Assembly: GCF_018398335.1 (NCBI RefSeq)
Contig: NZ_JAHBRX010000001.1
Coordinates: forward strand, 1,240,001-1,304,000
DNA from: Chelatococcus sp. HY11
GTDB taxonomy: Bacteria; Pseudomonadota; Alphaproteobacteria; Rhizobiales; Beijerinckiaceae
Reading direction: 5' to 3'
DNA length: 64,000 nt
A model generated the notes under the pieces. That model worked only from the letters and a program-made list of their open reading frames with translations. It ran no database searches and was not told the origin of the DNA. Shown one piece after another: positions 3,020-42,534 of this stretch (positions are counted from its first letter, which is position 1; each line of letters opens with the position of its first letter). The position numbers and the translations under genes were made by a program.

Positions 3020-3283
3020 GTTTTCTTCCCCATTCTATCGTCGATACCTCGAACTGGTATCTTGCTGGTCAATAAAGCGCCACCTTTCAGCTTCACACAA
3101 TATCTGCCAGAGTGCGCCGCGAGGGCGAGGCGGCTCTCTCATATGGCCGACATCATTGGCCGCTGAGGATTTTTGTTAAGGTTTTCGGGAGGTTAGGCAG
3201 CGATGCTCGCCCTGCCCGGCTGCCTCTAAAGCGATGGGCGATTCGTTCGTCCTGTCTATTGACCCTTTCATTGATTTCTGGTC

Positions 3284-41068: not shown

Positions 41069-41273
41069 GAACTTCCGGACCGATGAGGTCGCGCATGTAA
41101 CGCTATACGGTCATCCACCCGTACTCCCGAGCCGTGGAACCGTGACGCCACAGAGCCGCTCTATGGCGCGGCAGGCTTCGGACATGGTGTCAGCGAGGTG
41201 GGCGAGAAGGCTCGTGCCAGCTTACACGAATATCGTTGACCGGTAGAGCCATAGTAGTTAGACAGCGTCCCGT

Positions 41274-41335
41274 TCCAGGACGACCTGGACCTTCGAACAT
41301 CCGGGACGGCCCGGCCACTCTCAGGAGGGCTGCAC
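41274..41335 (+). promoter_or_regulatory. Guanidine-II riboswitch (mini-ykkC), copy 1, before the atpB remnant
   Basis: Two hairpins with the diagnostic ACGR loops: TCCAGG-ACGA-CCTGGA (41274-41289) and CCGGG-ACGG-CCCGG (41301-41314), with an 11-base linker. A ribosome binding site AGGAGGG (41323-41329) and a TTG start at 41336 follow directly. This matches the mini-ykkC architecture, in which guanidine bridges the two loops and frees the ribosome binding site. Here it controls a broken ATP synthase gene. Confidence 0.85.
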
Positions 41336-41787
41336 TTGGCTGGACCGATCGAACAATTCAAGATCACACCCATCATCCCGATCGAGATGGGTGGGCTGGA
41401 CCTGAGCGCCACCGAGTCATCCGCCTATATGTTGCTGGTGGTATTCCTCCTGGCCGCATTTTTCTTTTGGCGACCTCCAAAAGCCAACGGGTTCCAGGCC
41501 ATCTCCGACGCGCAGCCGAGCTCTTATTTGAGCTCATCGCCGACACGCAGCGGACCAACGCCGGAAAAGACGGCATGTGGTTATTCGCATTCGTCTTCTG
41601 CCTGTTCTTGTTCATCCTCGTCGCCAATCTCGTGGGGATGTTTCCCTATTCGTTCACCGTGACGAGCCATCTTCTCATGGCGGTAGCCACAACCGTGATC
41701 GAGATTCTGATGTGCGTTGTTCAGGCCTATATATTCGCGATGTTCACCTGCATTTATCTCCAGGATGCTCTGCATTCCGGTCATTGA
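41336..41787 (+). pseudogene. atpB: Remnant of ATP synthase F0 subunit a (atpB), frameshifted and internally deleted
   Basis: The N-terminal part reads AGPIEQFKITPIIPIEMGGL and runs to the first membrane helix in one frame (to about 41470). The next block (RVPGHLRRAAELLFELIADT, then FILVANLVGMFPYSFTVTSH) continues in another frame, so a frameshift has occurred. It then jumps to the normal C-terminus ([19 protein letters not shown], then HSGH). About 100 central residues are missing, including the SRP...RLFANMLAGH helix that carries the essential arginine. No atpE, atpF or atpI lies beside it, so it is a stray copy, not the cell's working gene. Confidence 0.88.
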
Positions 41788-41813
41788 ATATTCCCCGAAG
41801 GCGAGCCTTCACC

Positions 41814-41860
41814 CGAGGGGGACGGCCTCTTCGCTATCGAGATCTCCGGGACGGCCCGGA
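41814..41860 (+). promoter_or_regulatory. Guanidine-II riboswitch (mini-ykkC), copy 2, before sugE
   Basis: Hairpin 1 is an 8-bp stem CGAGGGGG/CCTCTTCG (two G-U pairs) closed by ACGG (41814-41833). Hairpin 2 is TCCGGG-ACGG-CCCGGA (41845-41860). The linker is 11 bases and the sugE start lies 22 bases downstream. The second hairpin is nearly identical to that of copy 1. Such switches commonly precede SugE-type guanidinium exporters, so the context confirms the call. Confidence 0.9.
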
Positions 41861-41881
41861 ATTGGAAGATTGGAGCGTCTC

Positions 41882-42202
41882 ATGGCTTGGTTGTATCTGC
41901 TGCTGGCAGGGCTGTTTGAAATCGTCTGGGCCTACGCGATGAAAAGATCGGAGGGCTTCACCCTCTTGGTACCGTCCATCGTCACGATAGCCTTCATGAT
42001 CGCGAGCTTCGCCCTGTTGTCGGTGTCGATGCGGTCGCTTCCCCTGGGCACGGCTTACACGGTCTGGACGGGAATTGGCGCCGTCGGCGCGTTTCTCGTC
42101 GGCGTTTTCGTCCTGGGCGAATCGGCGAGCGCGATGCGTCTCGCAGCGGCGGGGCTGATCGTGTCGGGCATCGTGATGATGAAGATGTCCAGTTCTGCCT
42201 AG
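41882..42202 (+). CDS. sugE: SMR-family guanidinium exporter SugE/Gdx
   Basis: A 106-residue inner-membrane protein with four helices. The helix 1 motif [19 protein letters not shown] carries the essential glutamate, and [20 protein letters not shown] is typical of the SugE branch. Work on this family shows proton-coupled export of guanidinium by dual-topology dimers. The guanidine-II riboswitch just upstream indicates induction by guanidine. The ATG at 41882 follows TTGGAG. Confidence 0.93.
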
Positions 42203-42208
42203 AAGATG

Positions 42209-42263
42209 CCCGCCCCCTACCGGGCGCTTTCAGCCGCTCTGGAAAGCGCCCGGCTGGGGCGGG
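42209..42263 (+). terminator. Long hairpin downstream of sugE, probable terminator
   Basis: An outer 8-bp stem CCCGCCCC/GGGGCGGG and an inner 12-bp stem CCGGGCGCTTTC/GAAAGCGCCCGG stand in one structure, starting 7 bases after the sugE stop. No T-run follows, so Rho help or mRNA stabilisation is possible. Confidence 0.6.
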
Positions 42264-42342
42264 ACGATCGGCGTGAGCAAGGTCCGGTCAGGCTTGCCGA
42301 TCAGCCGGGATAGATTGCCTTTCGCGGCAACACCGCGCCGGG

Positions 42343-42383
42343 GCGAATTCAAAAGTATCCGAAACATGGTAATTTGAATTCGC
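42343..42383. repeat. 11-bp inverted repeat GCGAATTCAAA / TTTGAATTCGC
   Basis: Perfect 11-bp arms at 42343-42353 and 42373-42383 are separated by 19 bases. They lie midway in the 332-base gap before the secreted protein at 42535. They could be paired operator half-sites or a cruciform; no owner is evident. Nothing else is seen in the gap. Confidence 0.5.
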
Positions 42384-42534
42384 TTCATCGAGCGGATCAC
42401 GCATCAGTCCCCCCGCTCGAGGCGTTTCTCATCAACCTGAGACGGCTGCGCCGGTGGTAATAAAACACCTTACACCGCTCTATACAGCTCTCACGCATTC
42501 CGGATAATGTCGGCGCGACGGATGGGAGCTGGTC

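Follow-up and report, generated by a model that had tools for sequence, protein, structure and literature searches.

Judged from sequence, several soil bacteria keep a spare gene for the proton-channel subunit of ATP synthase (subunit a, atpB) behind an RNA of the guanidine-II class, often beside an exporter-like gene. At 23 loci elsewhere, a second atpB that stands alone has guanidine-II upstream. A further atpB, broken, lies in the 64,000-nucleotide stretch of Chelatococcus sp. HY11 DNA analysed here (the window), and similarity and tree placement identify it as a decayed member of the same group. The earlier note on this DNA had remarked that it knew of no such pairing. That holds as far as the accessible parts of the open-licence literature go, in which no description of guanidine-II with atpB was found. 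However, a rare atpB entry is possible in supplementary mini-ykkC gene lists, which are outside that scope.

The window locus

Two guanidine-II aptamers lie in the window (Table 1). The search with the Rfam model RF01068 (guanidine-II or mini-ykkC, gathering score 32 bits) found no others in the 6.95 Mb genome. The earlier note had read them as two riboswitches in tandem. Both are genuine aptamers by their scores, which exceed the gathering score, but they are not a tandem switch on one gene. They are separate leaders about 0.5 kb apart, each preceding its own gene, and the longest stretch they have in common is the 15-nt core of P2.

The gene behind copy 1 is a broken F0 subunit a gene, as the earlier note had it, and it still has a ribosome binding site and a start codon. 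The N-terminal piece of the remnant matches the Aquamicrobium orphan AtpB at 69% and five Shinella orphan AtpB proteins at 58-67% (42-45 residues). The second piece reads in the frame of an open reading frame at 41236-41787. Aligned with the Shinella kummerowiae protein, the remnant has two gaps, residues 46-60 at the frame change and residues 113-210, the latter 98 residues long and including the essential Arg (residue 174 there). PF00119 matches two stretches of what is left (54.9 and 21.5 bits). With this frame change and internal deletion, no intact subunit a open reading frame is found in the window. The GC content of the remnant is 53.8%, compared with 62.6% for the window. A canonical atpB with atpE behind it is found in the same genome (C1:2118924-2119550). 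The orphan atpB is dead in the window, so its loss is tolerated.

Table 1. Features of the cassette, in positions of the window
Feature	Position	Strand	Evidence
Segment without match at the same site of congener G003	41069..42455		BLASTN
Guanidine-II riboswitch copy 1, leader of the atpB remnant	41272..41313	+	RF01068, 39.1 bits
Shine-Dalgarno sequence AGGAGGG of the atpB remnant	41323..41329	+	Sequence
atpB remnant, N-terminal piece, TTG start	41336..41470	+	Similarity to orphan AtpB
atpB remnant, second piece, other frame, internal deletion near 41680	41515..41787	+	PF00119 stretches; tree
Guanidine-II riboswitch copy 2, leader of the SMR gene	41814..41858	+	RF01068, 37.8 bits
SugE/Gdx-like SMR transporter gene, 106 aa, intact	41882..42202	+	PF00893, 98.5 bits (cut-off 23.7)
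Terminator-like inverted repeat behind the SMR gene	42214..42259	+	18-nt arms, 89% complementary

The gene behind copy 2 is best called SugE-like. It scores 122.5 bits with the NCBIfam SugE equivalog NF008512, and the SMR gene of genome G171 scores 112.2 bits; both are below the cut-off of 126.

How the cassette came to be at this site can be approached through three congeners. G003 aligns to the window through 41068 and resumes at 42456, and the 449 nt at its site have no BLASTN match and no ACGRCC aptamer motif. G002 matches up to 41068 and its downstream side was not found, while in G001 the window matches are on separate contigs. The absence of the cassette is thus read from the one congener G003. 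All three have guanidine-II elsewhere, before a different SMR gene (46-49% identical). The window locus is probably a decayed guanidine-response cassette that was acquired horizontally. It is simplest to suppose that the cassette was acquired and its atpB then decayed, although G003 may instead have lost the cassette. The subunit is lost in the window, and only the exporter half could still work.

Stand-alone atpB behind guanidine-II in other genomes

At 20 of the 23 other loci the atpB leader is above the gathering score of RF01068, and the remaining three (G228, G269, and G233) are at 31.5-31.6 bits. All but one of the 23 switch-linked atpB genes (22/23) are full length. Under stricter filters, at which weak aptamers are lost, RF01068 matched 39 of 199 genomes of the family, a sample that is a draw and not a census, as are those of 397 genomes of the order and 385 of the class used below. 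Of the 42 matches in the family, 29 loci besides the window were read, and one has an atpB. This is G171, in which guanidine-II, an SMR gene and a second guanidine-II are followed by an intact stand-alone atpB of 247 residues. Most of the other family loci read have guanidine-II before SMR or DUF1989-like genes. The genus of G171 is represented by 67 genomes, 18 of which have a guanidine-II match under the same stricter filters. PF00119 is found in all 67 and a second PF00119 copy in 11. Ten of these 11 second copies are beside guanidine-II and an SMR gene, and the eleventh (G248:C82:11989-12558) is more divergent (141 bits).

A DNA pattern combining the second aptamer hairpin with the atpB N-terminus was found in three of the 397 order genomes (that of the window, G452, and G564) and in none with the pattern read backward as a control. 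G452 has the same order as the window, with a switch (46.5 bits), an intact atpB, a second switch (31.8 bits, just below the cut-off) and an SMR gene.

Searching named genomes with the second piece of the remnant as query yielded 12 loci. Five have atpE behind the gene and the other seven are stand-alone atpB genes, six of them with guanidine-II upstream. These six are from Shinella kummerowiae, Shinella lacus, and Shinella sp. CPCC 101442 (36.4 bits each), Shinella sp. SUS2 (35.5 bits), Pseudochrobactrum sp. sp1633 (39.0 bits), and Aquamicrobium aerolatum (38.3 bits), in which the frame leaves the family after residue 128. In A. aerolatum DSM 21857 (L056) the atpB frame break, after about position 3204, is near the contig end and is possibly due to an inserted element. 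The seventh, a clade B stand-alone atpB of S. daejeonensis (L061), has no guanidine-II upstream. The protein of G171 matched 27 plasmid records, and seven of these regions were opened. One, on plasmid pT1293b of Phyllobacterium sp. T1293, has a stand-alone atpB with guanidine-II (34.0 bits). The matches from Methylobacterium aquaticum, M. bullatum, Shinella zoogloeoides, and S. meliloti (L092, L093, L095, and L096) have no guanidine-II, and an atpE-like start lies behind the gene. A Sphingomonas parapaucimobilis plasmid (unnamed7, 197 kb; L097) has F0 genes in operon order and an SMR-family gene 1.9 kb downstream of atpB, with no guanidine-II.

An SMR gene adjoins 13 of the 23 switch-linked atpB genes. 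These are all seven of clade A (the clades are described below) and, in clade B, those of G452, G564, G631, G228, G269, and G233. The other ten have no SMR match within flanks of 0.3 to 4 kb. The SMR gene precedes atpB in clade A and follows it in clade B and the window. No match to atpE was found beside the orphan copies tested, and on this ground the possibility that they are canonical operon genes was rejected. Canonical atpB followed by atpE is present in all 12 carriers checked (of 16 G-numbered carriers, the named carriers being outside the check). The carriers therefore keep their canonical gene, and the orphan atpB is an extra copy.

Other genes were also seen behind guanidine-II. At two loci, L035 (G107) and L048 (G073), it is directly 5' of a cation/proton exchanger gene (frame from 1561, PF01699 in both). 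The closest NCBIfam model to the L035 exchanger is ChaA, at 193 bits against a cut-off of 505. A small membrane protein of the CBU_0592 family is encoded behind guanidine-II at L038:1568-1840 (G127). DUF1989/UAAP1-like genes follow it at L026-L028, L032, L033, and L036, as assigned by family models for L028 and L032 and by sequence likeness for the rest.

The leaders themselves were examined by folding. The set consists of 23 leaders, window copies included and those of G228, Shinella SUS2, and CPCC 101442 left out, and every one has at least two ACGR motifs. By a 3-pair rule, one uninterrupted hairpin was scored in G564, G631, G233, and G269. Folds were predicted without ligand and again with the aptamer hairpins forced, the kissing contact being outside the model. 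In the predicted ligand-free folds, P2 has a probability below 0.5 in 20 of the 23 leaders, with a mean of 0.15 compared with 0.50 for shuffled tails. For copy 1 of the window the values are 0.00 and 0.65 (0 of 100 shuffles as low). A loss of P2 as rare as in 5 or fewer of 100 shuffles was obtained for only nine of the 23 leaders, and P2 is retained in the free folds of G171 sugE, G276, and Pseudochrobactrum. Forcing the aptamer raises the predicted accessibility of the Shine-Dalgarno window in 15 leaders (mostly slightly), leaves it unchanged in 5 and lowers it in 3. For the start codon the corresponding numbers are 9, 2, and 12. These mixed predictions are no more than compatible with a translational ON mode, which is the published mode of the guanidine-II class according to the available sections of a 2025 review (PMC12186494), and the folds with forced hairpins speak in part against it.

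Eleven loci have a longer leader, with 95-265 nt between the aptamer and atpB. As a raw count, all 11 have a short frame that starts 19-34 nt past the aptamer and stops over the atpB start. It begins with GTG in S. lacus, SUS2, and G1016, and other short frames are also found near some atpB starts. The short frames differ in sequence, which points to coupling and not to a working peptide. Six clade A loci (L104-L109) have a common altered leader before the SMR gene, with hairpins GAGGCCACGACCTC then CCGGGACGACCCGG, which was not matched as guanidine-II in the genus search.

Descent of the orphan subunits and their altered residues

A tree built from 56 proteins places the window remnant in one group with 17 orphan copies (clade B; 100/98). 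The branch of the remnant is long, which leaves its precise position within the clade uncertain. Seven other orphan copies form clade A (100/99), which joins canonical copies of its own genus (96/89). Clade B is distributed over several families and one plasmid, and clade A is confined to one genus. A single origin of all orphan copies was rejected (AU p 0.006). Taken with the two clades, this implies two or more separate events in which a guanidine-II leader was joined to a subunit a gene.

Each clade has signature residues. The position of E. coli aN214, which is next to the proton entry site and four residues beyond the essential Arg, is Val in all 16 full-length clade B proteins, whereas it is Asn in 31/31 canonical copies and in all seven clade A copies. 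Four residues before the conserved Gln, clade B has Met (16/16), which the window remnant retains, and 30 of 31 canonical copies have Val. In clade A, Met215 is changed to Leu and Ala217 to Gly (7/7), where residue numbers other than aN214 are obtained by counting from the essential Arg and Asn214. As clade A keeps Asn214, no single change is common to both clades. The essential Arg (E. coli aR210) is present in 23/23 full-length orphans of the two clades, including that of S. daejeonensis, which has no switch, and the conserved Gln is retained as well. A DNA motif for Val214 was found in 5 of the 397 order genomes, with guanidine-II upstream in all five, and in none of the 385 class genomes, a few of which are the same as in the order sample. 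It was also found in three of 14 genomes of one genus, again each with the switch; two of these are among the five. The switchless S. daejeonensis gene, from a genome not in these samples, is the only exception seen.

Median pairwise dN/dS of the orphan genes is 0.17 in clade A (21/21 pairs). In clade B it is 0.23, from the 91 pairs out of 120 whose dS was defined and within 0.05-1.5, the other 29 being left out. The canonical copies in the genus of clade A give 0.26 (45/45 pairs). The Aquamicrobium AtpB (128 residues) was kept in the tree and left out of this calculation. These ratios indicate that orphan atpB is under purifying selection, with dN/dS like that of canonical atpB.

The proteins also score as ordinary subunit a. 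All six orphans tested reach 326-372.5 bits with the subunit a model NF004482 (cut-off 225). N-ATPase and alternate F1F0 operons likewise put a second subunit a in the genome. However, the same six orphans score 72-86 bits with the N-ATPase model TIGR03306 (cut-off 302) and those tested have no atpE beside them, and identity with N-ATPase was rejected on the TIGR03306 scores. The predicted structure of the S. kummerowiae protein is weak (mean pLDDT 60.1, pTM 0.43, 11 sequences). The best Foldseek matches to this weak model are ATP synthase subunits a, with 6b2z_M at the top (E 2.6e-10). A divergent second atpB of another kind was seen at L141 (G001). It scores 151 bits, has an atpE-like gene behind it and looks like part of an alternate ATPase operon.

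A possible role for the orphan subunit

What might a spare subunit a do behind a guanidine switch? The cassette of the window consists of a guanidine-II switch, the orphan atpB (here decayed), a second guanidine-II switch and an SMR exporter-like gene. Its most likely working in relatives with an intact atpB is as follows. By analogy with what is known for the class, the two ACGR hairpins would bind guanidine. Formation of P2, as the folding models predict in part, would then remove its strands from a competing fold near the translation start, and translation would open. The product, to judge by gene content, would be a variant subunit a. As no other ATP synthase genes accompany its gene, it would need the c-ring and stator of the host, with which it would presumably assemble. 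It might take the place of the housekeeping subunit a when new F0 is assembled and preserve proton coupling in the presence of guanidinium, a cation similar to the side chain of the essential Arg. The changes seen in the proteins, Asn214 to Val in clade B and Met215 to Leu with Ala217 to Gly in clade A, would alter the entry site, and this may be their purpose. The neighboring SMR gene, SugE-like in the window, would export guanidinium, as is known for SugE/Gdx.

The core of this proposal, whose chances of being correct seem evenly balanced, is that a variant stator subunit a is switched on by guanidine, joins F0 and sustains its function while guanidine is present. The underlying idea would be that guanidinium interferes with the Arg/carboxylate interface in F0, and that tolerance would come from the orphan subunit a when it is produced on demand. 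The available parts of two studies place aN214 and aQ252 next to the leading c-Asp61 and aR210 (PMC8754430; PMC9447477), and aN214L had the greatest effect on pH dependence measured in the first of these (PMC8754430). However, hydrophobic residues or Gly are found at position 214 in a few natural enzymes (PMC9447477), so Val214 may be neutral. Biguanides inhibit mitochondrial ATP synthase according to the accessible text of one article (PMC4148174), which gives the site as unknown and in part within F1 and also cites substituted guanidines whose inhibition is limited to hydrolysis. Being mitochondrial and partly F1, the biguanide data lend only partial support.

Alternatively, the guanidine-induced orphan might enter F0 and conduct protons poorly, thereby lowering ATP hydrolysis or proton leak during guanidine membrane stress. 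One subunit alone would suffice for this, and in clade B the replacement of Asn214 by Val affects an input-channel residue. In the accessible sections of the E. coli work, aN214L shifts both pKa values, but synthesis-direction steps persist (PMC8754430). The orphans also keep the essential Arg and conserved Gln, and selection on them is as strong as on canonical copies. A subunit that hinders the motor is therefore considered unlikely.

Less probable again is that guanidine export is what the switch is for, with atpB no more than a passenger in a mobile cassette. This would fit the SMR gene adjacent at 13 of 23 loci, the patchy distribution and the copy on a plasmid. It fits poorly with two origins, with a leader belonging to atpB itself, with purifying selection and with the ten loci that have no SMR match in their flanks. 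Could the orphan AtpB act independently of F1F0, as a route for protons or guanidinium in partnership with the SMR exporter? The lack of other ATP synthase genes encoded alongside and the same 13 adjacent SMR genes might be taken to suggest so. However, all six orphans tested score as ordinary subunit a, and subunit a is not known to function without a c-ring. Such a role is regarded as quite improbable. The earlier note had proposed, for the window, that its leader was duplicated around a stray remnant or that atpB sequence replaced an exporter gene, which two leaders within 0.6 kb might suggest, but this can be set aside as a very slim prospect because the two copies share no stretch longer than 15 nt (duplication was rejected for this reason), G452 has the same order with an intact atpB, atpB has its own guanidine-II leader at the 23 other loci, and at none of these does some intact, unrelated gene occupy the place of the remnant.

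The preferred reading, exchange of subunit a under guanidine, has relatives among known systems. Target-replacement resistance, in which a less sensitive spare enzyme is made under stress, has the same proposed logic, although here the spare would be a single replaceable component of a rotary motor and a riboswitch would control it. Guanidine-II before sugE/gdx involves the same aptamer class, and the same transporter family is adjacent at the 13 loci noted above, but the target here is a gene for F0 subunit a. Efflux is the only known guanidine-specific stress response according to the accessible part of the 2025 review (PMC12186494). The nearest published idea, in the portion of the source available, is that of Na+-I riboswitches before Na+ ATP synthase genes (PMC9971707). 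There too an ion-sensing riboswitch is found on ATP synthase genes. However, in that case the genes are those of a Na+-driven synthase, whereas the gene here encodes a single spare subunit a and the switch belongs to a class that senses a toxic organic cation.

In its widest form the proposal is more tentative, and is put at somewhat less than an even chance. It holds that a rotary motor is retuned by on-demand exchange of its stator subunit a through a guanidine-sensing RNA, because guanidinium attacks the Arg/carboxylate interface. It also holds that this arose twice, often with an exporter-like gene, and that the F0 proton channel is a natural guanidine target. The conserved and twice-evolved link between guanidine-II leaders and the ATP synthase proton channel offers a testable candidate for a target damaged by guanidine. 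In addition, the orphan AtpB proteins are natural variants of residues beside the essential Arg, for use in studies of the motor. If the proposal is true, the F0 proton channel would be a natural target of guanidine toxicity.
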